NCBI RefSeq assembly: GCF_002305875.1
Contig: NZ_CP022098.1
Location: 3,472,001 to 3,536,000, forward strand
DNA: 64,000 bases
Reading direction: 5' to 3'
Source: Cystobacter fuscus
GTDB lineage: Bacteria; Myxococcota; Myxococcia; Myxococcales; Myxococcaceae
Shown here: positions 13,698 to 50,280 of the stretch, piece by piece
Layout: each line of letters begins with the position of its first letter
Numbering within the stretch: position 1 is the stretch's first letter
Notes under the pieces: generated by a model
Databases searched by the model: none
What the model was told of the DNA's origin: nothing
Seen by the model: only the letters and a program-made list of their open reading frames with translations
Program-made: the position numbers and the translations under genes

Positions 13698-15353
<1,656 letters not shown>

Positions 15354-15532
15354 CCCCTCTTCATCCCCATTCCCTCCCAACCCTGGCCCCGGGAGTCCAT
15401 CAAACCGCTCCCGGGGTTTTCGCATCCGTTACCAATTCCATGACTTCGTGATTTTTCACGAAAAGGAAGACGAGCGCGAGAGCCGGTGAGCGGATGGCGT
15501 CGCGGGGAAGGCCGCCCGTTTGGAGCCAGGGC

Positions 15533-16759: not shown

Positions 16760-16768
16760 CTGGGGGGC

Positions 16769-17191
16769 TCAGAGCTTGCGGCGCTGGCCGGTGCGCTTGT
16801 AGGTCAGGTAGTCGGCGAGGATGGTGCCATGGTCGAAGCACAGCTCGCGGGGCAGGGCGTCCACCGGGAAGGCCTTGGCCTCGGCGGCGTCATCCGCGCC
16901 CCGGGGCTCGCCCCGGGCCCGGCCGATGAAGACGGTGGAGAGGGTGTGCCGGCGGGGATCCCGGCTCGGGTCCGAGTAGGTGAAGAACTGCTCCACCAAC
17001 TCCACGTCCAGGCCCGTCTCCTCCTTCACCTCGCGCACCGCCGCCACGTCCAGGCGCTCGCCCTCGTCCACGAAGCCACCGGGCAGGGCCCAGCCCAGGG
17101 GCGGATTCTTGCGGCGGATGAGCACGACGCGCTCGCCGGCCAACTCGATGATGCAGTCCACGGTGGGCACGGGGTTCTTGTACGAGGCCAT
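16769..17191 (-). CDS. Nudix hydrolase (ADP-ribose/nucleoside diphosphate class)
   Basis: The 140-residue protein carries a complete Nudix box, [21 protein letters not shown] followed by TG, with the catalytic REVKEE. It hydrolyses nucleoside diphosphates linked to another moiety. The sequence [31 protein letters not shown] is typical of small ADP-ribose pyrophosphatase/NUDT-like enzymes, but the substrate cannot be fixed from sequence. ATG 17191 ([10 protein letters not shown]) is chosen over an upstream start that would add 51 Arg-rich residues. It is probably cotranscribed with the site-2 protease. Confidence 0.9.
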
Positions 17192-17264
17192 GGGGCGACA
17201 TTCTAACCCCTGGCCTCCCCATTGCACCGCGCATGTGGGCTCGCGCTGCGTTAGCCTGCTCGCC

Positions 17265-17759
17265 GTGGCCTCGCTCCCTCTGCTCCGCTGGTTCCTTCCG
17301 TGCACCCTGGCCCTGGGGCTGGGGGGTGGCTGTACCCGCGCCAACCTCCAGAACGAGGATCGCTATGAATTCACCACCACGGAGCTCATCCGGGATGACT
17401 GTGGCCTGCTCTCCTCGGAGGAGTCGCTCTGGGACGGCGAGCTGAAGATCGACGGCGATGTCGTGCGCATGACCTCTGACTGGCGGGGCCTGCAGCTCAT
17501 CGGCTTCGTGCTTCCCCGCGGCGAGTTCAACGATGACGCCTTCGTGCTCGATGGCAGCGAGTCCAGCGCGGCCATCACCCTGCGGGGCAAGCAGTGCCTC
17601 GTGGAGCAGGTGTGGATGCACCTGGAAGGCACGACGCAGTGCGCCACACGTTTCGACGGCGTGTTGAGCGTGCGCATCGAGCCGCGGGTGGAGCAGCCCG
17701 AGTGCGCCTGCCAGCTCTGGGTGAAGTACAGGGCAATTCAAGGCTCTGGGTGCCAGTAG
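17265..17759 (+). CDS. Small lipoprotein, unknown function
   Basis: This 164-residue protein has a GTG start and a lipoprotein signal ([18 protein letters not shown]). The mature part is rich in acidic residues and contains six Cys ([34 protein letters not shown]), suggesting disulfides. No family is recognised. It stands alone, diverging from the Nudix gene with 73 bases between starts, and is followed by acs after 75 bases. Confidence 0.7.
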
Positions 17760-29122: not shown

Positions 29123-30565
29123 TCAGGAGGTGGGCGGAAGTCGGACCCGGGCGAAGCGCGAGGCGTCCGTGTCCGGGTAGCGCTCGACGATGTAGCGGTA
29201 GACCTCCTGGGCCCGCCCCGGCTCCTGCATGCGCTCGCCGAGCACGCGCGCCAGGAGCACCAGGGCGCGGGGGGCGAGTGGATCCTCCGGGGCGGAGTCC
29301 GCGGCGGCCTCCAGCGCGCGCACCGCGAGGGCATGCTGCTGTTGGCTCGCCGCCGCTTGTCCGACGAAGAGGTGCACCGCGGGGGGGAGGGCGGCGCGGG
29401 GCAGGAAGTGGATCTCGGCGTAGAGCGCGAGGGCGCGGGGGATGTCACGGGCGCTGACGGCCTGGGTCAGCTCCTGGATGCGCAGCTCGGGGGGCGGGGC
29501 GGTCTCCGCCTCGGGCAGGCCCAGGCCCTCCACGCGCAGGGTGGTGCTCGGGGCCGCGCCGGGCAGCACGGGAGTGAGATACTCGGACGACGCCCCGTAC
29601 CCGAGGGCATCCCCCCGGGTGTGGAGCAGCAGCCCGAGCACGTGCGCCATCAACAGGGGCACGGGCAGCTCGACGAGCTCGGCGAGCCAGCGTGTCAGCA
29701 GCCCCAGGTCCAGGGCGCGCAGGCTCGCGCCGAGGGCGTACGTCACCAGCCCCGCGAGCCCCAGGACGAACAGGACGCCCAGCGTGGTGGTGTAGTCGCG
29801 CCCGAGGCGCAGCATGGCGCGCACGCCGCGCACGGGGTTGATCATCTCCAGGAAGGGGGCGCCGATGGCTCCCTGGATGAGGCCCATGGGCAGGTAGACG
29901 AGGCCGGCCAGTCCCAGCACCCACACGATGGGGTCCTCGCGCAGTTGTTCCCAGGGCAGGGCGTGGAAGGTGCCCGTCGCGTAGAACATGGGATCGTCGG
30001 ACAGGCGCGAGATGTACGCGTGCGCGTCCCAGCCGCTGAAGCAGACGAGGTAGACGCCGAAGGGGAGCCACACGGCGCTGGTGGCGACGAGGCCGCGCAG
30101 CGAGGGCTGGAGCCAGTCGGAGATGAGATCGTTGTATTCGGGCAGGGGGATGTCGGTCTCGCCCCGGGCGCTCGCCCGGAGGATGGCGAAGAAGCAGCCC
30201 CAGAAGACGCCGAACAGCAGCACCGCCGGAGCCAGCCGCGCGAGGATGAATGACGCCCGGGTGAGGAAGGCCAGCAGCGTGAGGATCGTCCCGATGGCCA
30301 GGAGCATGGCCAGGGCGTGGCGGTTGAGCAGGTAGCGCACCGCGGTGCGCATCCGCTCCGCGAGCGGTTGTTGCCGCGAGCGGTGGACGAGCAGTGTCTC
30401 CGCCTGTTGTCCGCAGGCGCGGCAGGCGATCAGGTCCACGGTGGAGATGCGCCGGGCCTCGACGCACTCCGGGCAGAGGAAGTCGGCACACCCCACGCAG
30501 CGCCAACCGGCGGTGGCGGTGGGGTGGCGCTTGCAGCGGGCGGGCGGCGGAGACAACGGGCTCAA
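29123..30565 (-). CDS. Membrane protein with N-terminal Zn ribbon and C-terminal helical repeats
   Basis: The 480-residue protein opens with a B-box-like zinc ribbon (CKRHPTATAGWRCVGCADFL, then CPECVEARR, then ACRACG). Six or so membrane helices follow in a DUF4013-like arrangement (TILTLLAFLT, APAVLLFGVFWGCFFAI, VLGLAGLVYLPMG, LGVLFVLGLAGLVTYALG). A cytoplasmic TPR-like tail begins at about 370 (ALALYAEIHFLPRAA, ALEAAADSAPEDPLAPRALV). The TTG start overlaps the upstream stop as TTGA, coupling it to the repeat protein. Function is unknown; a bacterial membrane scaffold is possible. Confidence 0.75.
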   Translation of the reverse strand: MSPLSPPPARCKRHPTATAGWRCVGCADFLCPECVEARRISTVDLIACRACGQQAETLLVHRSRQQPLAERMRTAVRYLLNRHALAMLLAIGTILTLLAFLTRASFILARLAPAVLLFGVFWGCFFAILRASARGETDIPLPEYNDLISDWLQPSLRGLVATSAVWLPFGVYLVCFSGWDAHAYISRLSDDPMFYATGTFHALPWEQLREDPIVWVLGLAGLVYLPMGLIQGAIGAPFLEMINPVRGVRAMLRLGRDYTTTLGVLFVLGLAGLVTYALGASLRALDLGLLTRWLAELVELPVPLLMAHVLGLLLHTRGDALGYGASSEYLTPVLPGAAPSTTLRVEGLGLPEAETAPPPELRIQELTQAVSARDIPRALALYAEIHFLPRAALPPAVHLFVGQAAASQQQHALAVRALEAAADSAPEDPLAPRALVLLARVLGERMQEPGRAQEVYRYIVERYPDTDASRFARVRLPPTS

Positions 30566-33258
30566 GGTTTGCTTCCCACGGGGGGCGTGGGAGTCGTTGT
30601 CTGGGATGCCTCCAACACGCCCAGTTGGACTTGCTCGCCTGGTTGCAGGGAGAAGGTGCGACTGGCGAGTATCTGGAAGCGCTCGGCCGAACCGCTGATG
30701 ACGAGGAGCCGGTTGGGCCCGGAGGGGAGCCGTTGCACGAGGAAGCGCCCCTGGGCGTCGGTGCGCGGACCCTCGCGGCTGATCAACGCGAGCACGTTGT
30801 CGAAGGTACTCACCCCGGACTCGGATTTGACGAGGACGTCATAGCCCTGGAGTGGCTGATGCGTCGCCGCATCGAGCACCGTGCCCGAGACGGAGCCCCA
30901 GGGCACCAGCTCGAGTTCCACCGGCGTGGAGCCGATCCCCACCTCCACGGTGCGCAGCGCGCTCCCCTCGTCCGAGGTCACTCCAATCGAGTACCGGCCA
31001 GGCACGACCCCGGGGATGCTGAACTCACCGGACCCGTCTTTCCCCTGGAACTGGTATTGCGAGGGCCCCTGGGCGGTGAGGACGAACTGGCGCACGGGAC
31101 TCCCCGCACGCCGGACGCTCCCGCGCAGCTTCAGGCCCGGAACGAGCCGGACCTCGAGCCGCTCCTGGCGGCCCTGCCGCAGTTCGCTCCGCACGAGCCC
31201 CTGTTCTCCTGTCTCGGGCGCGAAGCCCGCGATCTCGTAAGCACCGCAGCGCAGATGCTCCATCTGGAAGGAGCCGTCGGGGCCGCTGAGCGCCACACGC
31301 GCCGGGTCTTGCGTGGAGCGCCCGGCGGCAGCCGCTGGCTTCACGCTGACCCATGCGTCCGGTTGGGCGCCTCCGGTGGATGCCTGAATCCTTCCGAGCA
31401 CCCCGCAGCCGCGGCTCTCGACGACGACGGTCTGCCCGGTGAGGTGTTGCCCGGCGGCCAGGAGGATGCGGCTTCCCCCGGTGGGCGCGCGCACTTCCAG
31501 GGCTCCCGTGGAGTCCTCCGCCTCGAGGCGGTAGGAGGCCGCCGCCAGGCCCGTCAACCTGAAGTGGCCGTCCTCCTCCGACATGCCTCCAGAAATGCCC
31601 GCGGGGAGCCGGCCTTCGAAACCCTGGCCACGGGGCTCCGCGACGGCGCGGATCGACACGTTGGGGACCGCGCGCCCCTGCTCGTCCACCACCCGGCCCT
31701 CGATACGTCCTCCTGGCGAGACCTGGATGAGGGTGTGCTCGGGGTCTCCACTTCCGACGTCCACCTGGGCGCTGCCTCGTCCTCCCTCGAGGGTGGTGGC
31801 CACCAGGGTGAACGCGCCAGGAGGAACGCCGCTCAGCTCGAATGCGCCTTCCCGCGTGGAGCGGGTCCGCAGGTTGAAGACGGTCATCGCCGTCAGCATG
31901 GAGCCCTGACTCTCGCGGCGTGGCTCGATGGTGATCCACGCCTCCGCCGCCGGCTCCACGCGCCCGCGCACCGTGGCGCCGGTGTCCACCTCGACGCGCA
32001 CGTCCGTGACGGAGGTGTCCTTGACCGTGACCATGGGGCTGAGAAGCCGTGGCACGAAGTTTCCGCCCGTGGTGATGAGCCGGTAGCGCCCGGCCCCTGG
32101 AACCAGGAGCTGGAACGCTCCCTGCTCGTCCGAGGGAGTGGACTCCCGGGCCGACTCCTGGGTCTCCGTGTGCAGGGCGGACACGTGGGCACCAGCCACG
32201 GGCGTGCCACTGCCTTTCTGGACCACCTGTCCGGAGATGCTCAGGGCGCGGTCGACGAGCAGCACGATGTCCCGCGCCTGCGCGGCGATGCCCAGGTCGA
32301 CCGGGACCGGCTCGGACAGGAAGCCGGGGCTGGTGGCGCGCAAGCGCACCCTTCCCGATGGAAGTTGCCGGATGACGAAGTTGCCGGAGTCGTCGGTGAG
32401 GACCGCCGGGGGGAGCTCCGCATCCAGGGAGAAGCTGCCCTTGGGGCTATCGCCCAGCGACCAGCTCACCCGTGCCCCGGCGACGGGATGACCTCCCTCG
32501 CGGGTGAGGACCCGGCCCTGGATGGACGCCGCGGGCGTGAGCAGGAAGTCTTGTTTGCGGGGGACGTTCTCCATCCGGACCGTCGCGGCTCCGTCCGTGT
32601 AGTCCGGATGGGATGCGGTGAGGCCATAGACGCCCGCGTCGAGCCAGAGCTGGTATTGCCCGTTCGCGTCCGTCCATGAAGCGGGCCGGGGGCCCGTGCG
32701 GCCGAACTCGGGCGCGGGAACCTGCTCGACGGCGACGACCCGCGCGCCGGCGATGGGCCCTCCGCCGACATCCAACACCGTGCCCCGGAGCTCGACTCCG
32801 CCTGACTGCAGCTGGAAGTCCACCGTCTGGGGAGGACCGAGTGGCGATACAGCCAGGAGCCGCTGCGCCGGCCGGTAGCCAGGGGCGGTGGCCGACAGGG
32901 CATAGCTCCCCCCGGGCAGTTGACACAGTGCCCAGCGGCCCTGCCCATCCGCCCGCGCCAGCGAGGGCTCTCCAGTGGCCTGTTGGGGAGTGGCGCTGAC
33001 CGTGGCGCCCGCGAGCGCCTGGCCGGATGTCGTGCTCACCCGTCCAGACACCGCGCAACCCCCTGTCGCCGGGAGGCGCGAAGCGGCTGGCCCGGGCTCG
33101 GTCCGCGGCCTTTCATCCGCTCGCTTCCGTTCGACGGTGGGACGCTCCGGCGCGGCGGGTTCGGGCTGGAAGGCCATCCACAGGGCAATCCCGGCCAGGA
33201 GCACCACTCCGAACGCCACCAGGAGAGTTCGTCCGCGTGTCATGCCGTCCTTCTTCAT
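30562..33258 (-). CDS. Large exported protein of tandem carboxypeptidase-regulatory-like domains
   Basis: The 898-residue protein has one N-terminal membrane anchor (GRTLLVAFGVVLLAGIALWM) and a charged linker. About eight to nine repeats of 80-90 residues follow with the CarboxypepD_reg pattern, for example VSGRVSTTSGQALAGATVSA, then GQGRWALCQLPGGSYALSA; also VRGTV/IQGRV/ISGQV openings and DGSFQMEHLRCGAYEI-type closings. The domains are probably periplasmic or surface-exposed and adhesive or structural. ATG 33258 overlaps the JmjC gene stop (ATGA) and the stop overlaps the next gene start, so three genes are coupled. Its tie to the peptide cluster is by gene order only. Confidence 0.8.
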   Translation of the reverse strand: MKKDGMTRGRTLLVAFGVVLLAGIALWMAFQPEPAAPERPTVERKRADERPRTEPGPAASRLPATGGCAVSGRVSTTSGQALAGATVSATPQQATGEPSLARADGQGRWALCQLPGGSYALSATAPGYRPAQRLLAVSPLGPPQTVDFQLQSGGVELRGTVLDVGGGPIAGARVVAVEQVPAPEFGRTGPRPASWTDANGQYQLWLDAGVYGLTASHPDYTDGAATVRMENVPRKQDFLLTPAASIQGRVLTREGGHPVAGARVSWSLGDSPKGSFSLDAELPPAVLTDDSGNFVIRQLPSGRVRLRATSPGFLSEPVPVDLGIAAQARDIVLLVDRALSISGQVVQKGSGTPVAGAHVSALHTETQESARESTPSDEQGAFQLLVPGAGRYRLITTGGNFVPRLLSPMVTVKDTSVTDVRVEVDTGATVRGRVEPAAEAWITIEPRRESQGSMLTAMTVFNLRTRSTREGAFELSGVPPGAFTLVATTLEGGRGSAQVDVGSGDPEHTLIQVSPGGRIEGRVVDEQGRAVPNVSIRAVAEPRGQGFEGRLPAGISGGMSEEDGHFRLTGLAAASYRLEAEDSTGALEVRAPTGGSRILLAAGQHLTGQTVVVESRGCGVLGRIQASTGGAQPDAWVSVKPAAAAGRSTQDPARVALSGPDGSFQMEHLRCGAYEIAGFAPETGEQGLVRSELRQGRQERLEVRLVPGLKLRGSVRRAGSPVRQFVLTAQGPSQYQFQGKDGSGEFSIPGVVPGRYSIGVTSDEGSALRTVEVGIGSTPVELELVPWGSVSGTVLDAATHQPLQGYDVLVKSESGVSTFDNVLALISREGPRTDAQGRFLVQRLPSGPNRLLVISGSAERFQILASRTFSLQPGEQVQLGVLEASQTTTPTPPVGSKP

Positions 33259-34580
33259 ACGTGCGGCGCGGGTGTCGGGCTCTCCACCGGGGTGGTGAGC
33301 TGTTCGCCCTCGCGGCGCAGCAGCCCCCGTGTCAGCAGGGTCTCGAGCACTTCGATGCCCTGCTTCATGGAGATGTCTCCCCACTGCTCCACCTCGGCCA
33401 CGGTGAAGCGCTGGCGGGCCGCGATGCCGCGCACGAGGGACAACGCCTCTCCGGGCAGGAGCACCTCGGTATTGCAGCCATAGACATACACGAACTGGGT
33501 CCCGTCCGGTCCGGGCTTCCTCACGTAGGAGAGGGGATAGGGTTCGGTGCGCACCAGCACATCCTCCGGCTTCAGGGGTGAGGTGGGCGCCTGGCCGTCC
33601 AGCGAGACGTAGGGACTGCTGGTGACCGCGCGCCGCCAGATGCGCTCCAGCTCGACCCCGCGGGAGGACAGCTTGCCGAGCAGGTCACGCAGCTCGCCCA
33701 GGCGCGCGGTGATGAACTGCTCCACCTCCAGGGGGATTTCACCGGGCCGCGTCTGCTCCAGGGGGGTGGCGGGCAGGATGGCGCGCCACTCCAGCTTCTC
33801 GCTGAGCAGGCGCTCGATTTCCGGGAAGAGCAATTGCAGCATGCCGACCGTCTCGAAGGCCATGTTGAGCGCGAGCGATTCCCCGCTGGCCTTCGCGTTG
33901 TGCCATGTGCCGGGCGGCAGGTAGAGCAGATCCCCGGGCTCGAGCAGCACCTCTTCGAACTGGCTCTCGTCCGGGGTGGGCACGTCCAGCTTCTGCCGTC
34001 TGTTGTTGTGCTCACCGTGCCGTATCTGGCCATCCTTCTGGACGAGCGCGTTGGCGAGCGGGTAGTTCGTCGCGGGAAGCCGCGAGTACAGCCAACGCTT
34101 GCTGCCGGAGATCTGGATGATCGTCGCATGGCGCGCGTCGTAGTGGGTGTCCAGGCCCTCTCCATCCGGTGAGAGGTAGCAGTTGAAGCGCACCGGCGTG
34201 GCCAGGTTCATCTGGCGTTTGATGTGCGCGGCGAACTCCGCGAGCACCGCGTCTCCCGCGGTGATGTCATTGACGCAGACGGTGGTCCGGGAGGCGAGCG
34301 CCTCGCGGACCTGGGTCGGCTCGATCTCGATGCCCGCCTGAAGGTCGTGGCGGTTGCGCCATAGCGCCCGGATCGAGAAGGGCGCGGGCTTCCGCTTGTC
34401 GAAGCCCACGCGCAAGATGGCTCGGTCGAACCGCTCCCGATCGAAGAGCCGGGCGAACTTGGTGGGCGTTCCTCGGACGTAGAGGGGCTTCTTCTCCCAG
34501 TACTCGGAGAGGAACTCCTTCGGGCTGACCGGGTACAGGAACTCCGCGAGTTCCCTGCCCGAACCGTTGCTCATGCTCAT
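33255..34580 (-). CDS. JmjC/cupin-domain Fe(II)-dependent oxygenase-like protein
   Basis: The 441-residue protein has an N-terminal ROXA/JmjC-like region (FLSEYWEKKPLYVRG, typical of cupin_4 proteins). The metal-binding double-stranded beta-helix contains THYDARHATIIQISGSKRWL (HxD pair) and the distal His in PPGTWHNAKASGESLALNM. These supply the 2-His-1-carboxylate Fe(II) site of 2-oxoglutarate oxygenases such as ribosomal hydroxylases. The C-terminal 150 residues are a winged-helix-like region. GAGGTGG precedes ATG 34580. It lies directly after the ABC exporter of the peptide cluster, so hydroxylation of the peptide is an attractive inference, not shown. Confidence 0.85.
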   Translation of the reverse strand: MSMSNGSGRELAEFLYPVSPKEFLSEYWEKKPLYVRGTPTKFARLFDRERFDRAILRVGFDKRKPAPFSIRALWRNRHDLQAGIEIEPTQVREALASRTTVCVNDITAGDAVLAEFAAHIKRQMNLATPVRFNCYLSPDGEGLDTHYDARHATIIQISGSKRWLYSRLPATNYPLANALVQKDGQIRHGEHNNRRQKLDVPTPDESQFEEVLLEPGDLLYLPPGTWHNAKASGESLALNMAFETVGMLQLLFPEIERLLSEKLEWRAILPATPLEQTRPGEIPLEVEQFITARLGELRDLLGKLSSRGVELERIWRRAVTSSPYVSLDGQAPTSPLKPEDVLVRTEPYPLSYVRKPGPDGTQFVYVYGCNTEVLLPGEALSLVRGIAARQRFTVAEVEQWGDISMKQGIEVLETLLTRGLLRREGEQLTTPVESPTPAPHV

Positions 34581-34625
34581 GAAACCACCTCATGCGTGAA
34601 AGAGGATCGACGCAGTGGAGTTTCC

Positions 34626-34644
34626 CCTCGCCGGGGAGGCGAGG
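34626..34644 (-). repeat. Small hairpin between the ABC and JmjC genes
   Basis: A perfect 7-bp inverted repeat (CCTCGCC, 5-base loop, GGCGAGG) lies in the 74-base gap after the ABC transporter stop. Without a T tract it could be a weak attenuator or an mRNA processing element dosing the downstream genes. Short GC hairpins arise by chance in such DNA. Confidence 0.3.
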
Positions 34645-34654
34645 CAGCCTAGCA

Positions 34655-36517
34655 TCAACCCAGGGTGCGCAGCATGGGCTGCGCGGGAGTTTCCTGTGCC
34701 GCGAGGTCGTCGACATAGGGTGCGGCCTGCAGCCGGAACAGCCGGGCGTAGGGGCCCTCCGCCCGCAGGAGCGATTCGTGATCACCCTGCTCGACAATCC
34801 TTCCCTTCTCGAGCACGACGATGCGATCCGCCACGCGCGTCGATGACAGCCGGTGGGTGATGAAGACGACGGCGCGGCCACGCCCCAATTCCCGGAGCCG
34901 GTGGAACAGATCATGCTCCTGGCGCGCGTCCAGGGCGGAGGAGGGCTCGTCGAGGATGAGCAGTGGTGCCGCCCGGACGAAGGCGCGGGCCACGGCGATC
35001 CGCTGCCACTGGCCGGAGGAGAGTTGAACGCCGTCCTCGAACGCGCGCCCGAGCATCGTGTTCACGCCCTCGGGCAGTCCCGCCACCACGTCATCCAGGC
35101 CCGCGGCACGCAAGGCCGCCGCGAGCTGGTCGGCGCGTGCCTCGTTGCCCAACAGGACGTTGTCTCTCAGGCTGAGCTCGAAGCGCGCGAAGTCCTGCCA
35201 CACCACGCTCACGAGCGAGCGGTACTCGTCGGGATCGAACTGGCGCAGATCCGTGCCATCCAGGGTCATCACCCCTTCGGATGGATCATAGAGCCGGGCC
35301 AGCAGCTTCACGAGCGTCGTCTTGCCGGAGCCGTTTTCTCCCACGATGGAGACCACCTCGCCGGGCCGCAGGCTCAGGTTGATGTCGTGCAGCGTGGGCT
35401 GCTCGGCTCCCGGGTAGTGGAAGCCCACCTGGCGCAGTTCCACCGCTTGCTGGATGTCCCGGGGGGGAGTGACGCGCGGGGCCCGCTCCTGGAGCGTGGG
35501 CTGGAGCCGCAGGAACTCGAAATAGCGGCTCAGGAACAGGTTGTGCTCGAACGCGCTCGACAAGGACGTCAGCACCGAGGACAGGTGGAGCTGGAGCGTC
35601 TGGAGGGCCGCCACCCCCATGGTCAGCGTGCCCAGGGACAGCCGTCCGCTGAGTGCTTCCATCGCGAGCGCCGCATAGGCACCGTAATAGGCGAGCCGGG
35701 ACAGGACTCGCCCTCCGAGCCCCAGGCGCGCGTTTTGCGAGGCGAGCGCGCGGTCCTCCGCGAGGAACGTCTTCAACCGCTCCCGCATGTGCCCCAGCAG
35801 CCAGGGCGCCACGCCGAACACACGCATTTCCTTGGCGAGTGTGCCGTCGGTGAGGATGCCCTGGTAGTAGGCGAGACGGCGGCCCAGGGGACTGCGCATG
35901 TCCATCAGTCCGAACTTGCGCGCGACCCCCCGGAATTGGAACCGCATCTCGGGAATGCACGCCAGCAGCACGAGCACCAGGGCCGCCGGGAAGAGGCCGA
36001 CCACGAGCATTGCCTGGGCCACCAGGGCCGCCAGGGACTGCATCCCCCGGAGCGTCTCCCGGTACAGCACCATGGGGCGGAAGCCCACCTCGCGCGTCGC
36101 CTTCTCGAGCTGGTCGTAGAAGTGGGGAGTGTCGAAGTGCGCCAGGTCGAGCGAGGCCGCCTTCGCGAGCACCGAGAGCGTGGCATGGGCCTCGACCTTG
36201 CGCCCCAGTCCATCGTTCACGTACTCCGCGAGCGCCTGGAACAGCTCCCGGGAGATCGCGAGCAGGGCCATCAGCCCGATCCATCCCAGCACTCGGTACA
36301 GGTTCTCCTCCGAGGGCTGGGCGATGCCCGCCGCGACTCCGTCCACCACGTTCTTGGAGGCCCACAACAGGCCCGTGGGAATGCAGGCTCCCATCAGCAG
36401 GAGCACGGAGGCCAGGAGCGTTCCGGTGGGATCCGTGTTCCATACCAGCCGCAGCACGCGCCAGACGAACGCGAGCGTGAGTGGCGCCTGCGTGCTCGGT
36501 CTTCCGGTCGATGCCAA
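34655..36517 (-). CDS. ABC transporter, fused permease and ATPase (peptide exporter type)
   Basis: The 620-residue half-transporter has five to six membrane helices in residues 20-300. The ATPase from about 375 has Walker A GENGSGKT, signature LSSGQWQRIAVARA (LSSGQ rather than LSGGQ) and Walker B LLILDEPSSALD, then the H-loop ITHRLSS. There is no N-terminal C39 peptidase, so it would not itself remove a leader. Start is TTG after GGAAGGGG. Sitting between an ATP-grasp ligase and a JmjC protein in a precursor-headed operon, it most likely exports the modified peptides or gives self-protection. Confidence 0.9.
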   Translation of the reverse strand: MASTGRPSTQAPLTLAFVWRVLRLVWNTDPTGTLLASVLLLMGACIPTGLLWASKNVVDGVAAGIAQPSEENLYRVLGWIGLMALLAISRELFQALAEYVNDGLGRKVEAHATLSVLAKAASLDLAHFDTPHFYDQLEKATREVGFRPMVLYRETLRGMQSLAALVAQAMLVVGLFPAALVLVLLACIPEMRFQFRGVARKFGLMDMRSPLGRRLAYYQGILTDGTLAKEMRVFGVAPWLLGHMRERLKTFLAEDRALASQNARLGLGGRVLSRLAYYGAYAALAMEALSGRLSLGTLTMGVAALQTLQLHLSSVLTSLSSAFEHNLFLSRYFEFLRLQPTLQERAPRVTPPRDIQQAVELRQVGFHYPGAEQPTLHDINLSLRPGEVVSIVGENGSGKTTLVKLLARLYDPSEGVMTLDGTDLRQFDPDEYRSLVSVVWQDFARFELSLRDNVLLGNEARADQLAAALRAAGLDDVVAGLPEGVNTMLGRAFEDGVQLSSGQWQRIAVARAFVRAAPLLILDEPSSALDARQEHDLFHRLRELGRGRAVVFITHRLSSTRVADRIVVLEKGRIVEQGDHESLLRAEGPYARLFRLQAAPYVDDLAAQETPAQPMLRTLG

Positions 36518-36553
36518 GAACGAACCCCTTCCGGGCGACTTCCGCCCAGCCTG

Positions 36554-37540
36554 TCAGCCCATCCCGCCGCGGACCAGCATGGCGGCGAGGGCATCGGAGA
36601 TGGGCAGCTCCGTGGCATCCTCGATCCAGGCGTACATCCCGGTGGGATTCATCTCCAGGAAGACATACTCGCCCTCGGGCGTGAAGATCATGTCGATCGC
36701 CGAGTAGGCCAGCCCGAACTCCCGCGTTATCGCCAGGCAGGACTCGGCGACCTTGGGGGGCAGCGCGTGGACGCGGTACGAGATCTTCACCGACTCATTC
36801 CAGGTCTTCCGGTAGTCGATGGTCGTCGCCTCGTGGTTCTGTGAATGCAGCTCCGCGGCGAAGACCTCGTTGCCGACGATGGTGATGCGGACCTCGAACC
36901 TCTTGGGCACGTAGGCCTGGAGGATGGCCGGACAGAACTGGAGCTGGTCGAGCTCGGAGATGTCCTTCTCGCTCAGGATATTGGTGTAGATCATCCGCGG
37001 AGGCGTCGCGGAATCACCGTTCTTCTCGATCAACACCGGCAGGCCGATGGCCTTGTAGGCGACCCTGGCATGCTGTGCGCAGAAGGCCTTGGCGTCCTCG
37101 GGAGAATTGGTGACCAGCGTGGGCGGCACCCGGAGGCCAAGCCGTGGCGCGAGCGCGAGCTGGCGGGGCTTGTCATTCGCGGCATGGTTGCGGTCGTTCA
37201 CGTTGACCATGAACGCGCGCTCCTGCAGGACGCGATAGGCGCTGTGCATCACGGTCTGGCACTGGTGATGGATGAACTTCGACTCCGGCGCGGAGATGCC
37301 CTCGGGCAGATCATACTCCCCGTACTTCCACAACCACGCCGAGCGCACGCTGGACAAGTCAATCCGCTTGCCCGAGCCATTCACGAAGAACGCGGTCGTT
37401 TGATCCGAGCCAAGCGCGACCCGTGCCTTCCGCGGATAGTCGTTCGTGTTGAAGCGGACCCAGGGCTGACCCATCTTGGTGAGTCGCCGGATGACTCGGT
37501 CGGCAGTGGGCTCCCAGGCATTCGTGGTGATGAGGATCAT
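36554..37540 (-). CDS. MvdD-like ATP-grasp RiPP maturase (graspetide ligase)
   Basis: This 328-residue protein belongs to the microviridin-type ATP-grasp group. It opens with MILITTNAWEPTADRVIRRL and VRFNTNDYP, has ATP-binding lysines around VAYKAIG, LQAYVPKRFEVRITIVGNEV, and the Mg-binding end GEYVFLEMNPTGMYAWIE, in which Glu and Asn ligate Mg. These enzymes phosphorylate Asp/Glu side chains of a precursor and join them to Thr/Ser (ester) or Lys (amide). ATG 37540 is clear from the conserved start, though the ribosome site is weak. Two precursor genes lie 115 and 456 bases upstream on the same strand; there is no second ligase, unlike the MdnB/MdnC pair. Confidence 0.92.
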   Translation of the reverse strand: MILITTNAWEPTADRVIRRLTKMGQPWVRFNTNDYPRKARVALGSDQTTAFFVNGSGKRIDLSSVRSAWLWKYGEYDLPEGISAPESKFIHHQCQTVMHSAYRVLQERAFMVNVNDRNHAANDKPRQLALAPRLGLRVPPTLVTNSPEDAKAFCAQHARVAYKAIGLPVLIEKNGDSATPPRMIYTNILSEKDISELDQLQFCPAILQAYVPKRFEVRITIVGNEVFAAELHSQNHEATTIDYRKTWNESVKISYRVHALPPKVAESCLAITREFGLAYSAIDMIFTPEGEYVFLEMNPTGMYAWIEDATELPISDALAAMLVRGGMG

Positions 37541-37654
37541 AGGGTGGGGCTCAACTGCTGCTCTGTGCGTGCACTGGGAGCGGTCCACCCGCGCATACCG
37601 TGGGGGCCCCACGTCTCGCGACGGGCCGGCCACCGGGGGTGAACCGCCTGGCGG

Positions 37655-37888
37655 CTAGGGAACAAAGTCGGCGTCGAGGTACAACTTGCCGTTGATGTAA
37701 TCAACCGTGCTGGTGCCCCCGATCGGTATGTCGCTCTCATCGGCGGAGGAGGCGATGTGCTGCAAGACGAAGCCGTCGACTTCTGGTGCGTACTCCGCTG
37801 CCACCTGGCTTCCCTTCATGCACTCCTCGAAGCGTTTGAAGAACAGGGCTGGGACCGCGGCGCTCGTGGTGCTGGCATCAGTTCGCAT
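37655..37888 (-). CDS. Graspetide-like precursor peptide B
   Basis: The 77-residue peptide has an AAGGAG ribosome site before ATG 37888. The leader holds PALFFKRFEE at 13-22 and EYAPEVDGF at 32-40, nearly identical to peptide A. PALFFKRFEE resembles the PFFARFL helix that microviridin ligases bind. The C-terminal core GGTSTVDYINGKLYLDADFV ends with P and offers Thr59, Ser60, Thr61 and Lys68 as donors and Asp63, Asp72 and Asp74 as acceptors. The shared end is Lys then a DADF tail. Modification topology cannot be told from sequence. It lies directly upstream of the ATP-grasp gene. Confidence 0.82.
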   Translation of the reverse strand: MRTDASTTSAAVPALFFKRFEECMKGSQVAAEYAPEVDGFVLQHIASSADESDIPIGGTSTVDYINGKLYLDADFVP

Positions 37889-37995
37889 GGCCGCTCCTTG
37901 GAGGAGAATCATGTCAAGAGTCGACCAGCCCACGTGCTTGCCGGAACGGCGCGAACACGATCGGCTGGTCTCCTCGTCAGGCGATTCGTCGGTGA

Positions 37996-38238
37996 CTAGA
38001 AGTCCGCGTCGGCGTCGGCATCCCACTTGCCGCCACTGCTGTAGGTGCCGCTGGCGCTGCCGCTGCCGTCGTCCGGCAACTGCTCGAGATCATCCTGGGC
38101 CGCGGTGAGCCGGAAGACGAGGCCGTCGACTTCCGGAGAGTACTCGTAGGCGCCGATGCTCTGGCGCATGGGCTCCTCGAAACGCTTGAAGAAGAGGGCG
38201 GGGGACACGGCGGGGGTGGTGCTGATCTCAGTCTGCAT
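37996..38238 (-). CDS. Graspetide-like precursor peptide A
   Basis: This 80-residue peptide is the first gene of the operon, with GGAGG nine bases before ATG 38238. The leader contains PALFFKRFEE at 13-22 and EYSPEVDGL at 32-40, aligning without gaps to peptide B over about 40 residues. The core SGTYSSGGKWDADADADF closes the protein: Thr65, Ser67, Ser68 and Lys71 are possible donors, and Asp73, 75, 77 and 79 possible acceptors. The alternating Asp-Ala run is unlike the TxKxPSD microviridin core, so the ring pattern may be new. Leader conservation with core divergence is typical of RiPP precursors. Confidence 0.82.
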   Translation of the reverse strand: MQTEISTTPAVSPALFFKRFEEPMRQSIGAYEYSPEVDGLVFRLTAAQDDLEQLPDDGSGSASGTYSSGGKWDADADADF

Positions 38239-38287
38239 GAATCCTCCGGGGGACTTCACTCAGCTGCATTGTCCGTAAAGCGACATC

Positions 38288-38316
38288 AAGATACGCTATT
38301 GGATTAGATGGATCAA
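38288..38316 (-). promoter_or_regulatory. Predicted sigma-70-type promoter of the peptide operon
   Basis: On the minus strand, TTGATC (38316-38311) and TATCTT (38293-38288) are separated by exactly 17 bases, each matching consensus at four of six positions. It lies in an AT-rich island unlike its surroundings, 50 bases before the start of precursor A. Transcription would begin near 38281, giving a leader of about 40 bases. Confidence 0.5.
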
Positions 38317-38519
38317 TCATGAATGTGAATTTTATTCGTACTCCTGGAAAAGCCAGGAACGACGGACCCGGGCCCGGGCGGCCGCCCGCGACGTCTCGTC
38401 GTCCCGTCGCTTCTCGGTCCAGCGTGATGGGTCAGAACACGTAGGGGGCGCGCCTGGCCCGGTCTGTCTTCCCAGGGCGCTGGTGCAGGAGGCGGAAGGC
38501 GGCCTTGGCTTCCTTTGGG

Positions 38520-38993
38520 TTACCGCTCCCAGTGTCGATGCTCCAGCCGGTAGACCTCCAGGGAACGTTGGAGGGGAGCCAGCAGCCACAGATGGCTCAC
38601 GCCCTCGCGGCCATAGGCCTTCATCTTCTTCTCCCGATCCAGCACCGCCGTGGAAGGCGAGAGCACCTCGCAGACCCAGTCGGGGGCCAGGGTGACGGCC
38701 GCTGTGTGGGGCATCTCCGGCATGCGTTCCCGGCGCCAACCCGCGAGGTCCGGTACCAGGGCGTCATTCCCCAGGTGCAACTCGGGCTCGCTCAGGATGA
38801 TCCAACCACCGGGGCCCTCCTCGCCCAGGTCGAAGGGTTTTCCCAACAGCATTCCGAGTCGAGAAGTGGCCCTTGCATATAGCGGGGCCGGGCGGGGGCT
38901 CACGTACAGCTCGCCATCGACGATCTCTCCCACTCGATGGGGAGGGACTGTCTCCAGGTCTTCGAAGGAGGCCCCGCGCTTCGACCCGCTCAT
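38520..38993 (-). CDS. Uma2-family (DUF820) endonuclease-like protein, C-terminally truncated
   Basis: The 157-residue product carries the PD-(D/E)xK-like Uma2 core: EIVDGELYVSPRPAPLYARA, then PELHLGNDALVPDLAGWRRE, then WVCEVLSPSTAVLDREKKMK (acidic metal ligands and Lys) and VSHLWLLAP. Uma2 proteins normally continue about 30-35 residues after LEVYRL through a WxLLG...EPF segment. Here the frame stops at HWER. The catalytic core is retained, but the missing end suggests an eroded copy. An alternative in-frame GTG lies at 39002. Uma2 genes are abundant and often mobile in myxobacteria, with unknown function. Confidence 0.75.
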   Translation of the reverse strand: MSGSKRGASFEDLETVPPHRVGEIVDGELYVSPRPAPLYARATSRLGMLLGKPFDLGEEGPGGWIILSEPELHLGNDALVPDLAGWRRERMPEMPHTAAVTLAPDWVCEVLSPSTAVLDREKKMKAYGREGVSHLWLLAPLQRSLEVYRLEHRHWER

Positions 38994-39060: not shown

Positions 39061-39117
39061 AATCAAGCTGAACCCAACAGCTCAAGTCACCCACTGGAGG
39101 CTCGGGGACTCGGCCCG

Positions 39118-45717: not shown

Positions 45718-48700
45718 TCAGTTCACCCGGCGGCGGCGGGCCAGGGCGAGCAGCCCCAGGCCGAGCAGGCCCAGGGGGGCCTCGGCGCCGGTGGAGCAGC
45801 CACACTTCGGCGGCTCGGGCTGAGGCTGGGGCTCGGGATCCGGGTTGGTCACGGGCTTGGGAGTGACGGTGACGGAGACGAAGGCGGGCTCACTGTCGAG
45901 GGAGCCGTCCTTGACCACGAGGCTGAAGCGCAGCGGGGTCTGGGCCTCCACGTCCGGAGCGGTGAAGGACGGGGTGGCGGTGTCCGCGCCGGTGAGCGTC
46001 ACGGGCGTCCCCTCCACCTGGGTCCAGGTATAGGTGAGCGCGTCACCGTCGGGGTCCGAGCTGGCGGTGCCGTTGAGTTTCGCCTGGGCGCCCGTCTCGA
46101 CGGAGAGGGCCTCACCGGCGTGGGCGGTGGGGGCGCGGTTGACGTTGCGCACCGTGACGTCCACGGAGGAGCGGGTCGTCGTCTGGCCGTCGCTCACCAG
46201 CAACAGGAAGGTGAGCGTCTCGTCGAGGGTGACTTCGGGCGCGGTGAAGGTGGCCTGCGGCGTGAGGGCATTGGTCAGGGCCACCGGCGTGCCGGATTGC
46301 TGCACCCAGGCGTAGGTGAGCTTGTCACCGTCCTCGTCGCTCGCCGAGCCCATCAGCGTGTAGCTGGAGCGCTCGTCCACGACACCCGCGATGCCCGCGT
46401 TGACGGTGGGCGCGCGGTTCACGTTCGTCACCGTCACCGTCACCGTGTCGGTGACCGTGCTGCTCTTGTTGGTGACGGACAGCTTGAACACCAGGTTGGT
46501 GTTGGCGGTCACCTCGGGAGCGGTGAAGGACGGCGTGAGCGTGGCCGCGTCCGTGAGCGTCACCGTGGGGCCGGACGTCTGCGTCCACGTGTAGGTGAGC
46601 GAGCCGCCGTTGGGGTCCCTCGCGCTGCCCTGGAGCGTCAGCTTCGCGCGCTCCCCCACCTGCAGATCCGGGCCGGCCGAGATGACGGGAGCCTGGGGGC
46701 TCACGCACACATTGTCATCCTCGCTCACGGTGGTGAAGGGGGTGTTGGTGATGCCGCTGAACTCCAGATCGTCCACCAGCCAGCCGTCCGCTCCGGTGTT
46801 GACGTCCGAGCCGACGCGGAAGCGCAGCCGCACCGTCTTGCCCGCGTACGCCGTGCCGAGATCCAGCGTGGCGGGGATGAGGGCGGGGAAGCCCGGGCTC
46901 TTGCCGGAGATGGCGTTACGGCCATCGAGCGGATTGAGGTTGTCCTCCGCGCTCTCGAGCGTCGCGGTGTACAGGGACTGGCCGACGTCCACCCACGTCT
47001 GTCCATCATCCTCGCTCAGTTCGATGACGGCGCCGTCGAAGTAGATGTCCTCGGTGCCGGTGATGGCGGCGGAGTACCACTCGAAGCTCCAGGCCTGCTT
47101 GAACTTGAGGACGAGGGGCTCGGTGGCGCTCACCATGAGAGGCGGGGTGGTGAGGCGCATGTCGCTCGGCCCGTTCTCGTTCACCGCGTAGAAGAGGTTG
47201 TTGGTGACCGTGGGGTACTGGAAGACTTCCCAGTCCACGTTGTCCAGGCGGTCATCATGCGTGAAGGTCCAGGGCGGGTTGCTGGACTGCACGTCCTCGA
47301 TCCGCTGGGACTCGGGCTCCTCGTCGTAGTTGGCCATCACGGTCAGGGTGCCCGTGCGGTCGCCGGGCCGGGTGAGCTTTCCCTGGTGCGTGGTGACGAC
47401 GAAGTTCAGCCACTGGCGCGTCGTCGCGCCCTGGAGCGACACCGGGACGGTCACCTCCGCCTCCTGCAGCACGTTCAGGGCCGGCACCTGCACCTGGCCG
47501 CCGTTGCCCAGCGTCACGCCGAAGGTGGGCGAGGTCACGGTGGCGGTCGTCACCTCGGTGCGGGTGGGACCCAGGTTGCGCACCTTGATGCGCAGCAGGC
47601 CCATCTCGCCGTTGTCGAGGATGGCGTCCCCGTCGCACGCCTGGGTGGGGGCATCCACGGAGATGGAGACGACCGCGACGTCCGCGGTCGTGTCGTAGCT
47701 CTCCACGACGCCCACGTGGTTGGTGGACAGGCGGTCCGGCGCCTTGGCTCCCACGCCCGCGCCACGCCGGGCGAAGGCACTCCAGAAGCGCTGTCCATCC
47801 GCGGGATCCGAGGCGTAGGTCGCCGCGATGAGCGCGTCACGCGCCTCGAGGAAGGTGGGCATCGCGGGCGTGAGCTTGTAGCCGTTGACCAGGTACTGCT
47901 TCATGCGGTCCTGCGCGTCCTGGAAGGGATGGGCGCGCAGCAGCGACACGTAGCAGTCCCACAGCATCGTGGCCCAGATCTCACCCGAGTTGTGGTACTC
48001 CGCGTTGGTGGAGAAGGGCGTGATGGGCGCCGAGGTGGGCAGGGTCTCCGCGTTGGAGATGTGCTTGAAGGTGAGCGCGTTCTTGCTCATGTCCGCCGAG
48101 TAGGTCACGCGCCGGATGCCGAAGAAGGTGCTGTCGTCGGACATGCCGCCGCGCGTGGCGTACTCGGCCGCGGCATAGGCTCCGTTCCAGTCGGCGTTGG
48201 AGGGGACGTTGATGTCCTCCGCGCGCACCATCATCAGCAGGGCGGTGAAGTCCGCCCAGCCCTCGCCCATGGACCTGCCCTGGTTGTTGCTCAGGCCGGA
48301 CCCGTTCCAGATGAGGCGGTTGCTGATGTAGTGGCCCCACTCGTGCGCCACGATGCCGTTGTCGATCGTTCCGTCCGGATCGAGGAGCCGTACGCTGTAG
48401 AGCCGCGCGGTGAGCCCGGGGAGCGCGGCCTTGAGCTCCTGGCCCGTGGTGCGCGTGACGATCTGGGTGGGAATGGTGATGCTCGCATCCTTGCTGCCGG
48501 ACGACTGGACGACGTCCACGGTGTTCACCCAGAGGACGCCGATGGCACCGGCGTTCTGTGCGTTCTTGATCTGCTGGGGGATGGTGCAGGAGGTGCTGGT
48601 GCTGCGGTCGACGAGGGCGATCTTCCCGGCCACCTCGGCGGCGTTGGTCAGGGGAGCGCAGGCCTTGGTGTCGGACGGAGTGCCGCTGGCCGTGAGCACG

Positions 48701-50280
48701 ACCTCCGCGCTCACGTTGTACTCCTGCGGGCCGGCGGCGACGGTGCCCACCGGGTAATTGCGCGGGGTGCCCCCGGGGACGCTCGTCTCCAGGTGCGTGT
48801 CGAGGTTGTCGAAGATGTACATCTGCATGCGCGGGGACGCACCGTCCGCCGGCGTCGACATGTTCGCGTTGTTGCGCCCGCTGTAGTCCTGCGCCTGGGC
48901 TTGGATGGCGTCACCGCCCAGGCCGCCGCGGCTGAAGTTGTCCTGCTGGGCGTTGCCCGAGGCCTCGTCGAAGCCCACGTCGTAGAACCAGTCGTGCAGC
49001 CAGTTGTTCACGAAGAACAGCTGCGTGGTGGCCGCCTGGATCTGCTCCGCGTTGGCATAGGGCTGGATGCTCAGGTCCATGCTCCGGTCGAACACGCCCG
49101 GAGCCGTCATCGTGGCACGCAGGTCACCCTGGCTGAAGCCGTCCGGCGCGACGAGGTCCGCGTACGCGTCCACGTTGTTGCCCTGGGTCTGCGTGGCGCC
49201 GTCCGCCAGCCAGGGATCGTTCTGGCTGAAGGGCGCGTTCTGGAGGGTGACGAGCGAGGGAGCCACGAACGCCGGCGGGGCGAAGGTGTAAGGCTTGCCC
49301 GTGGGGTGGGGCGTGGCGACGCCGCCCGCGGGTCCATCCAGTGGGAGATAGGGCGGCGTGGTCTCCGCCCAGACGCGGTAGGAGAAGTTCGCGTGCGCGG
49401 TGAGGTTGTTGCGCATGAGCAGCCGGCCATCGGCCGCGGACACGACGTAGGCGTAGTAGTCCGAATCGGAGCTCTCCGCCGGGGCCGTGTTGAGCTCCAG
49501 GTAGTAGGCGGGCACGAGCCCGGTGGGCAGGGGGAAGAACACGGGCCTGGCGCGCGCGGGGATGACGAGGCCCTCGGCGAGCGGACGCGCGTAGGGGGCG
49601 AGCTGGTAGTGGGTGTACGGAGTCTGCTCGTTCGCGCGGACGCTCGCCCGCGTGAGCAGGCTGCCATCCAGGGGGGCTCCGGTCAGGTCGCGGTAGGCCA
49701 GGGAGATGGCCTGGGGAGCCGTCAACTGGTAGCGCAGGCTCGAGACCCGGGCGGCGGACGTGGTCGCGGACGCGTGCGGGGACAGGTTGCCGCTGAGGGC
49801 CACGACCTCGTTGTTCGCGTCGAGGAGGACCTTGAGCCCCTGGCGGAACACCTCCACGCCGTCCACCTGCTGGGCGAAGGTGACGATGGACACGCCGCGC
49901 GCGTCACGGCTGACGGAGGCCACGCTCGCACCGGCCTCGGTGAGCGACTTGTGGCCGTACAGCGACAGGTACTCCGCGAGCTGCTCGCGCGCGGCCAGCT
50001 CGGGCTTCATGCCCGCCAGTTGCGTGCGCAGCGACCGGGCCTCGGACTTCCTTCCATTCGCCCAGACGAAGGTGGGCAGGTTGCGCTGCTCGTCCAGGTG
50101 GGTAACGCGTGCGCCCAGTGTCTTTCCCAGCCGCGGGCTCGTGCCCGGTGAGGGCGCGGCTCGCAGCGAGGAGGGGGGGGCGTCTTGCAGCACTTCGTAG
50201 TTCGGCAGGTCTCGCGCCGTGGCGCCCGTGCTCGCGAGCGCCAGTGCCAGACTCGACCACTTGAAAAACAACCTTGTCAC
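45718..50280 (-). CDS. Secreted M36 (fungalysin) metalloprotease 1 with PA domain, three PKD/Ig-like repeats and MYXO-CTERM
   Basis: The 1520-residue product has a GTG start after GGAAGGAG and a signal peptide (WSSLALALASTGATA). It has an FTP/PepSY propeptide (about 70-260) and a PA domain inserted ahead of the catalytic site (ACAPLTNAAEVAGKIALVDR, about 540-600). The zinc motif is HEWGHYISN, His646-His650. A jelly-roll region follows, then three repeats of about 90 residues (VISAGPDLQVGERAKLTLQG type, each with LTYTWTQ) and the anchor CGCSTGAEAPLGLLGLGLLA, then RRRR. It probably digests prey or extracellular protein at the cell surface. It is a tandem paralog of the next gene. Confidence 0.93.
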   Translation of the reverse strand: MTRLFFKWSSLALALASTGATARDLPNYEVLQDAPPSSLRAAPSPGTSPRLGKTLGARVTHLDEQRNLPTFVWANGRKSEARSLRTQLAGMKPELAAREQLAEYLSLYGHKSLTEAGASVASVSRDARGVSIVTFAQQVDGVEVFRQGLKVLLDANNEVVALSGNLSPHASATTSAARVSSLRYQLTAPQAISLAYRDLTGAPLDGSLLTRASVRANEQTPYTHYQLAPYARPLAEGLVIPARARPVFFPLPTGLVPAYYLELNTAPAESSDSDYYAYVVSAADGRLLMRNNLTAHANFSYRVWAETTPPYLPLDGPAGGVATPHPTGKPYTFAPPAFVAPSLVTLQNAPFSQNDPWLADGATQTQGNNVDAYADLVAPDGFSQGDLRATMTAPGVFDRSMDLSIQPYANAEQIQAATTQLFFVNNWLHDWFYDVGFDEASGNAQQDNFSRGGLGGDAIQAQAQDYSGRNNANMSTPADGASPRMQMYIFDNLDTHLETSVPGGTPRNYPVGTVAAGPQEYNVSAEVVLTASGTPSDTKACAPLTNAAEVAGKIALVDRSTSTSCTIPQQIKNAQNAGAIGVLWVNTVDVVQSSGSKDASITIPTQIVTRTTGQELKAALPGLTARLYSVRLLDPDGTIDNGIVAHEWGHYISNRLIWNGSGLSNNQGRSMGEGWADFTALLMMVRAEDINVPSNADWNGAYAAAEYATRGGMSDDSTFFGIRRVTYSADMSKNALTFKHISNAETLPTSAPITPFSTNAEYHNSGEIWATMLWDCYVSLLRAHPFQDAQDRMKQYLVNGYKLTPAMPTFLEARDALIAATYASDPADGQRFWSAFARRGAGVGAKAPDRLSTNHVGVVESYDTTADVAVVSISVDAPTQACDGDAILDNGEMGLLRIKVRNLGPTRTEVTTATVTSPTFGVTLGNGGQVQVPALNVLQEAEVTVPVSLQGATTRQWLNFVVTTHQGKLTRPGDRTGTLTVMANYDEEPESQRIEDVQSSNPPWTFTHDDRLDNVDWEVFQYPTVTNNLFYAVNENGPSDMRLTTPPLMVSATEPLVLKFKQAWSFEWYSAAITGTEDIYFDGAVIELSEDDGQTWVDVGQSLYTATLESAEDNLNPLDGRNAISGKSPGFPALIPATLDLGTAYAGKTVRLRFRVGSDVNTGADGWLVDDLEFSGITNTPFTTVSEDDNVCVSPQAPVISAGPDLQVGERAKLTLQGSARDPNGGSLTYTWTQTSGPTVTLTDAATLTPSFTAPEVTANTNLVFKLSVTNKSSTVTDTVTVTVTNVNRAPTVNAGIAGVVDERSSYTLMGSASDEDGDKLTYAWVQQSGTPVALTNALTPQATFTAPEVTLDETLTFLLLVSDGQTTTRSSVDVTVRNVNRAPTAHAGEALSVETGAQAKLNGTASSDPDGDALTYTWTQVEGTPVTLTGADTATPSFTAPDVEAQTPLRFSLVVKDGSLDSEPAFVSVTVTPKPVTNPDPEPQPQPEPPKCGCSTGAEAPLGLLGLGLLALARRRRVN

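Follow-up and report, generated by a model that had tools for sequence, protein, structure and literature searches.

A probable graspetide-type RiPP cassette with a putative JmjC hydroxylase in Cystobacter fuscus

A 64,000-nucleotide stretch of the Cystobacter fuscus genome (contig NZ_CP022098.1, positions 3,472,001 to 3,536,000 of the forward strand; hereinafter the window), a genome that consists of a single contig of 12.35 Mb, contains a gene cassette that probably encodes a graspetide-type member of the ribosomally synthesized and post-translationally modified peptides (RiPPs) and that includes a gene for a JmjC oxygenase (Table 1). On the minus strand, the genes follow one another in the order precursor A, precursor B, ATP-grasp ligase, ABC transporter, JmjC protein and repeat protein, with intergenic gaps of 107, 114, 36 and 74 bases between the first five. 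The earlier note on this DNA, made from the sequence alone, placed the cluster at 33255-38316 and described all its genes as lying on one strand behind one promoter-like element. Five open frames indeed occupy the minus strand of this interval, but the set is incomplete in that the cassette extends as far as about 30551 and has a further gene. The promoter-like element was not recovered: a consensus scan of 30400-38700 detected no sigma-70-like site (shuffle mean 0.5; other promoter types are outside such a scan).

Table 1. Coordinates of the cassette and of its predicted genes and features in the window
Feature	Position	Strand	Basis
Cassette extent (piece missing from genome G073)	30551..38428	.	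genome comparison
Repeat protein, carboxypeptidase-regulatory-like domains	30562..33243	-	PF13620, 9 stretches; absent together with the cluster in G073
JmjC (PF08007) oxygenase, 441 aa, HxD...H	33255..34580	-	PF08007, 74 bits (cut-off 22)
Predicted winged-helix / RRE-like domain at the C-terminus of the JmjC protein, residues 341-423	33312..33560	-	domain model
ABC transporter, exporter-like by matches	34655..36517	-	ABC-type ATPase domain
Graspetide-type ATP-grasp ligase, 328 aa	36554..37540	-	PF21068, TIGR04187, PDB 5ig9/5ig8
Precursor B, 77 aa, ATG with AAGGAG site	37655..37888	-	open reading frame, homology to precursor A
Precursor B C-terminal end NGKLYLDADFVP, predicted core, same in G074	37658..37693	-	sequence
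Precursor A, 80 aa, ATG with GGAGG site	37996..38238	-	open reading frame, homology to precursor B
Precursor A C-terminal end GGKWDADADADF, predicted core, same in G074	37999..38034	-	sequence
Precursor A leader motif PALFFKRFEE, residues 13-22	38173..38202	-	sequence; resembles microviridin leader PFFARFL

The boundaries of the cassette come from comparison of the four genomes of the genus, two of which, the window's own (G000) and G074, contain the cluster, and all four of which contain both flanks. In G073, the match stops at window position 30550 and restarts at 38429 after 48 unmatched bases, so that 30551-38428 is missing, and in G075 the matching flank stops at 30537 and restarts at 39117. 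The segment missing from G073 extends from the entire repeat-protein gene through 190 bases before precursor A, and because the gap covers precisely this segment, the repeat protein is counted as the sixth gene of the cassette. The cassette is present or absent as one unit, and the comparison fits acquisition by one line as well as loss from the other. Upstream of the precursors, G074 has about 3.1 kb extra before a Uma2-like gene (window 38521-38529 versus 14611-17746 of its locus L065), and in G073 a few hundred bases at the same point are without a match. The repeat protein contains one hydrophobic segment near the N-terminus. In a search that scored ten candidates for each genome and required E below 1e-100, it was detected in 2 of 91 genomes of the family, once more G000 and G074. 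Its low end, 30562, is a stop codon; the start codon is uncertain (33258 or 33243), the later ATG (33243) being likelier because the TGA/ATG overlap with the JmjC gene seen in the window is absent in G074. For the same reason, translational coupling of these two genes was dropped as a candidate.

The two precursors are homologous to each other (local score of 149; the highest of 500 shuffles scored 48), as the earlier note had proposed for two short frames with good ribosome sites. Because of this mutual homology, the Shine-Dalgarno sites in front of both and the intact frames in G074 (89% protein identity for A and 92% for B, aligned without frame damage), we take both to be real genes. The two species have identical PALFFKRFEE motifs, PEVDG blocks and C-terminal twelve residues in these precursors, and the intervening stretch varies. 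The ratio of nonsynonymous to synonymous substitution rates (dN/dS), calculated from few changes, is 0.71 for precursor A (11.5 nonsynonymous and 4.5 synonymous changes) and 0.32 for precursor B (7 and 6, respectively). PALFFKRFEE is present in both precursors and, judged by eye, resembles PFFARFL, the motif of the microviridin leader, which binds the ligase (PMC8939145). The ends GGKWDADADADF and NGKLYLDADFVP contain both potential donors (Ser, Thr or Lys) and potential acceptors (Asp or Glu) of graspetide crosslinks, and in an alignment by eye, GKxxxDxD comprises the residues common to both cores in both species. A search of 195 genomes of the phylum yielded convincing matches to precursor A in G000 and G074 only; 74 of these genomes gave some precursor match at E up to 1, the next best (G053, E = 8e-4, 33% identity) lying inside a 769-codon frame.

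The ligase matches the MvdD pre-ATP-grasp domain PF21068 (39 bits, cut-off 27), and its best solved relatives are the proteins named 'ATP grasp ligase' 5ig9 (E = 8e-45) and 5ig8 (E = 2e-42), which we take to be MdnC/MdnB-type ligases and hence of microviridin type, followed by CdnC and AMdnB (7m4s). The domain match and the similarity to 5ig9 place the protein with the MvdD/MdnC-type ligases of graspetides. The NCBIfam models TIGR04187, MvdD and MvdC gave 239, 203 and 198 bits, all under the curated cut-offs (350 for TIGR04187). TIGR04187 is an annotation also given to MirB and CorB (PMC13097080). Two ATP-grasp genes in tandem, sharing about 30% identity with the window ligase, are located at G000:C1:2660400-2662346, and among the matches listed, adjacent pairs of this kind recur in several family genomes. 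As for the ABC exporter of the earlier note, an ABC-type ATPase domain is present, but no Pfam match was obtained for the membrane part and no C39 peptidase domain was found, so that the protein may be regarded as a putative exporter.

The ligase scores below the curated cut-offs, the dN/dS of precursor A, the lack of a leader protease among the cassette proteins in a Pfam search and the negative sigma-70 scan could together be taken to indicate that the cassette is inactive or that the ligase forms no crosslink, for example, only adding amino acids. Such a scenario appears very unlikely because the frames are open in two species, the four large genes show dN/dS of 0.21-0.27 between the window and G074 (over 753 codons for the repeat protein), and the DYRK and ExNP stretches of the ligase align with those of 5ig9.

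The match to PF08007 confirms the JmjC protein of the earlier note. The metal site (H146-x-D148 and H227) is intact, and N133, H146, D148, K161 and H227 are invariant in all eight aligned JmjC proteins; N133 and K161 are candidate 2-oxoglutarate contacts, on the assumption that residue roles carry over within this enzyme type. The best solved relatives by sequence are YxbC (E = 2e-17), MINA, a YcfD-like enzyme and NO66, and the motif region aligns with that of MINA. The full-length structural model was poor (mean predicted local distance difference test score, pLDDT, of 42, from 5 sequences), and residues 325-430 were refolded alone, also from five sequences (pLDDT 83.5, predicted template modeling score 0.74). 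The resulting model consists of strands 17-20, 27-32, 38-43 and 48-52 and helices 53-63, 70-73 and 81-93, and is most similar to MINA53 (4bu2; Z 10.6, root-mean-square deviation 2.4, 86 aligned residues, Foldseek E = 4e-4) and NO66 (Z 8.8). Matches to RiPP domains include the RiPP recognition element (RRE) of PbtF (Z 7.4), TigE (7.3), a chain of the McbBCD complex (7.1), MccB (7.0), TruD (6.6), PqqD (6.6) and TbiB1 (6.2), all in the range under 8 where Z may reflect merely a common arrangement and where the non-RiPP protein GdmN (7.1) appears as well; the model also has one strand beyond the strict beta3-alpha3 order of the RRE. Judging from this model, the C-terminal domain is a winged helix of the MINA53/NO66 kind with a possible likeness to an RRE, and in combination with the HxD...H site and the cofactor Lys it gives the protein the layout of MINA53/NO66-type oxygenases. 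A hidden Markov model search with the domain of the window clade found no significant match in the other long JmjC proteins (best E = 0.046), and that these end in a winged helix was judged by eye only.

A search of 145 genomes of the order for JmjC homologs identified the counterpart in G074 (95% identity) and, outside this graspetide pair, five nearest homologs with 63-66% identity (62-66% by BLAST). All five come from Myxococcus/Corallococcus-type genomes, where they are encoded in lanthipeptide-type clusters of class II. By look-alike sequence, each of the five neighborhoods contains a precursor ending in AASCDWCSC along with glycosyltransferase-like, FAD-oxidase-like and C39-type ABC genes; LanM is visible in four, and the fifth contig ends before it. 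Family models, run on the proteins of L067 and L069 only, identified LanM (TIGR03897, 541 bits, cut-off 304), a precursor from one of these clusters (TIGR03898, 65 bits, cut-off 23.5), and Peptidase_C39, Glyco_transf_28 and FAD_binding_4 above cut-off. A further JmjC relative in G074, 35% identical, adjoins genes for a YcaO protein (PF02624, 88 bits, cut-off 25.7), SagB-type dehydrogenases and a C39-ABC protein; this cluster (L071, 3683-19552) also encodes a 49-amino-acid candidate precursor that has no family match.

The wider look covered the next 20 regions by E-value, down to 4.4e-11 (L107-L126; G088, a 3.7 kb contig, was left out), in which RiPP markers were called as BLAST matches to references from the window, L067, L069 and L071; the reference loci match by construction, so the independent look is L107-L126 only. 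A marker accompanies 11 of the 12 long JmjC genes (at least 375 amino acids; the exception is L113), six of them with LanM (two apiece in three clusters) and five with C39-ABC as the sole marker, and none of the 14 short ones (one on a contig of just 5 kb). No p-value is drawn from a Fisher test of the contrast, since that test included L071 twice and took related genes to be independent. Family models confirmed only the LanM of L112 in these regions (TIGR03897, 815 bits), and the C39-ABC protein of L116 fell below the NCBIfam cut-off.

The LanM clusters of L112 (4609-14390), L119 and L122 (genomes G078, G095 and G100, respectively) contain four consecutive genes, two PhyH-type and two JmjC, that is, up to four putative hydroxylases per small lanthipeptide (families tested in L112 only), together with a 41-42-amino-acid peptide that ends in EGSCTWGANCGK and has no NCBIfam model match. 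L116, L117, L120, L123 and L126 are alike clusters of HlyD-like, C39-ABC-like, second ABC-type and JmjC genes, and no precursor or core-modifying enzyme was recognized in these stretches. In L077 (1073-13951, G083), a gene for an ATP-grasp maturase adjoins one for a full LanB-type dehydratase, and two PF08007 genes lie on the opposite strand at a distance of about 6 kb; this is possibly a hybrid cluster and a second, looser neighborhood of JmjC and ATP-grasp genes. Beyond the order, a scan of 84,980 species (one genome per species) with two strict patterns, which would miss distant relatives, returned 35 candidate stretches with 4 confirmed JmjC relatives, all of them assigned to lanthipeptide-type genomes already in the set. 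Plasmid matches came from 40 records and in every case covered less than 80% of the query, and among the matches listed, identity did not exceed 28%.

In a phylogenetic tree of 30 JmjC proteins, which included 11 of the 15 genes without a marker, a branch (support 100/99) separates these 11, including the long gene of L113, from all the others. The graspetide pair is nested among the lanthipeptide homologs with modest support (91/89; 84/91 in a second analysis), a single clade of the five lanthipeptide rows was not rejected (approximately unbiased test, p-AU 0.09), and the 30-protein tree carries a long-branch warning. Given the modest nesting support and this p-AU, no direction of transfer between graspetide and lanthipeptide clusters is claimed. 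The point that carries weight is that, judging by the gene contexts, this JmjC lineage appears to have remained associated with RiPP-type clusters through changes in peptide chemistry. It is conceivable that the JmjC protein does not oxidize a peptide at all but is a ribosomal-oxygenase-like passenger, as MINA53, NO66 and the YcfD-like enzyme, its nearest solved winged-helix relatives, are listed as ribosomal-protein hydroxylases, or a mere activator of the ligase, given that CorC, the oxygenase of the graspetide corallotide, activates the ligase CorB besides performing its own reaction (PMC13097080). We consider this improbable in view of the RiPP-type contexts of the nearest homologs, the location of the marker-less JmjC genes on the other side of the tree, the presence or absence of the cassette as a unit, and the conserved active-site residues.

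Our interpretation of the locus, to which we assign a probability of roughly 0.7, is that the cassette produces a graspetide-type RiPP and that a JmjC hydroxylase tailors it. This interpretation is based on the ligase family and its nearest solved relatives, the microviridin-like leader, the conserved leader motif and C-termini of the precursors, the presence or absence of the cassette as a unit, the invariant active-site residues, the JmjC homologs in RiPP-type clusters, the markers beside the long JmjC genes and the precedents CorC, BipG and PbsQ. Under the proposed mechanism, the PALFFKRFEE leader helix would bind the ATP-grasp ligase, which would link side chains in the conserved C-terminal GK...DAD core, with Lys or Ser/Thr as donors and Asp as acceptors; the JmjC protein, as a MINA53/NO66-like 2-oxoglutarate oxygenase, would hydroxylate a core residue before or after crosslinking, and the ABC protein would export the product. 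The earlier note had also proposed a RiPP with an added hydroxylation; the unit cassette and the contexts of the JmjC homologs support this proposal. Gene content, homology, intact motifs, the behavior of the cassette as a unit and the surroundings of the homologs are observations, and we infer all bonds, the hydroxylation with its site and its place in the sequence of steps, and the export.

Several observations weigh against this interpretation. In addition to the ligase scores and the lack of a recognizable protease considered above, the JmjC clade lies beside a graspetide ligase in only 2 of the 145 genomes, closely related ones, among the matches listed. The contrast between long and short JmjC genes with respect to markers amounts to one old split and counts as evidence only once, and C39-ABC without a further marker is a weak indicator of a RiPP cluster. 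Finally, shuffle comparisons detected no leader similarity between the graspetide and lanthipeptide precursors, and the idea of a shared leader motif was rejected, with 92 to 479 of 500 shuffles scoring as high in the eight comparisons.

With regard to the hydroxylated residue, the AASCDWCSC cores share Asp, Ala and Ser with the window precursors, and among these residue types, Asp is, to our knowledge, the one with a known precedent for RiPP hydroxylation. Because Asp is shared in this manner and SmaO beta-hydroxylates Asp in a graspetide precursor (PMC13097080), by analogy Asp is our first choice for the target, at not quite even odds; the Lys of KxxxD is the second choice, and a doubtful one. 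This second choice belongs to a variant of the graspetide interpretation that is modeled on corallotide (graspetide group 15), in which an isopeptide forms within KIVAD before CorC hydroxylates its Lys, and the KxxxD motif is modified five times (PMC13097080). Under this variant, corallotide-like chemistry would have arisen by convergence, a single Lys-to-Asp (i, i+4) macrolactam would form at KWDAD in core A and KLYLD in core B, and the JmjC protein would hydroxylate the crosslinked Lys and may also be needed for ligase activation, as CorC is for CorB. The same KxxxD motif in both cores and the fact that the nearest known parallel is a myxobacterial graspetide with an oxygenase are in line with it, as is the hydroxylation of a basic side chain, that of Orn, by the JmjC enzyme BipG. 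However, KxxxD in core A is nearly forced by four Asp residues at +2, +4, +6 and +8 from the Lys, the lanthipeptide cores beside the nearest JmjC homologs have no Lys, and CorC comes from another family, PF13640; the variant, therefore, seems unlikely.

A broader extension of the graspetide interpretation, one that we regard as tentative, is that the JmjC protein is a transferable module which reads leaders through its winged helix, has been swapped among graspetide, class II lanthipeptide and azole RiPP clusters, and performs the same hydroxylation, probably on Asp, in each of these chemically unrelated scaffolds. In the graspetide, residues of the GK...DAD core would then be oxidized to give a hydroxylated crosslink. 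As no common leader similarity was detected, the sequences do not support a single mode of leader reading, unless specificity and domain shifted together. If the proposed function is correct, a JmjC hydroxylase joins the graspetide toolbox, and enzymes with 62-66% identity beside two unrelated peptide scaffolds amount to a natural experiment; their comparison would tell whether a RiPP oxygenase recognizes the leader or the core, and whether such an enzyme is portable to new scaffolds. A further question that would become testable is whether the ribosomal-oxygenase winged helix and RiPP leader-binding domains share a function as well as a fold. Elsewhere in the window, two large adjacent genes (45718-50280 and 50434-54462) encode nearly identical N-termini (MTRLxFKWSSLALALASTGATAR), apparently a tandem duplication.

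Among the known systems, microviridins (graspetide group 1) are characterized by a TxKxPSD core, two ligases and an acetyltransferase. The cassette resembles them in the leader motif and in the type of the best solved ligase relatives, but has no TxKxPSD-type core, encodes one ligase rather than two and has a JmjC protein instead of the acetyltransferase. With corallotide, which the text of PMC13097080 reports only from Corallococcus, it shares the general setting of a myxobacterial graspetide cluster with a 2-oxoglutarate oxygenase and a KxxxD motif in the core. The corallotide cluster, however, combines the PF13640 enzyme CorC with a large five-repeat precursor and a beta-lactamase-like partner, in contrast to a PF08007 JmjC protein, precursors of 77 and 80 amino acids with one KxxxD each, an ABC transporter, a repeat protein and no beta-lactamase match in the cassette.

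Oxygenases of the JmjC or a related cupin-like type that act on residues of RiPP precursors are represented by BipG, which acts on Orn in biphenomycin (PMC12707348), and PbsQ, a cupin-like hydroxylase (PMC12257519); the accompanying chemistry in these pathways involves multinuclear non-heme iron oxidative enzymes, radical SAM enzymes and an arginase, and an Orn-making arginase was not found in the cassette. MINA53, NO66 and YcfD share the catalytic domain with a C-terminal winged helix, but are listed as acting on ribosomal proteins, in contrast to the window gene, which lies in a RiPP cassette. RRE-like domains fused to PF08007 JmjC proteins, with bacterial homologs of about 30% identity in RiPP-like contexts, have been described (PMC12710340), in a main text that does not contain the word graspetide; the words oxygenase, cupin and Jmj are all absent from the main text of PMC8939145. 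Among the open-licence papers listed, none was recognized as describing a graspetide cluster with a JmjC gene, with the caveat that the dioxygenases in the supplement of PMC13097080 may hide one. The rarity implied by the poorly described group of the earlier note is weaker than stated, as CorC, SmaO and SmaX, another oxygenase of a graspetide pathway (PMC13097080), BipG and PbsQ are known parallels. Thus, each kind of part in the cassette has known parallels, and it is the combination of a JmjC protein with a graspetide cluster that looks new.

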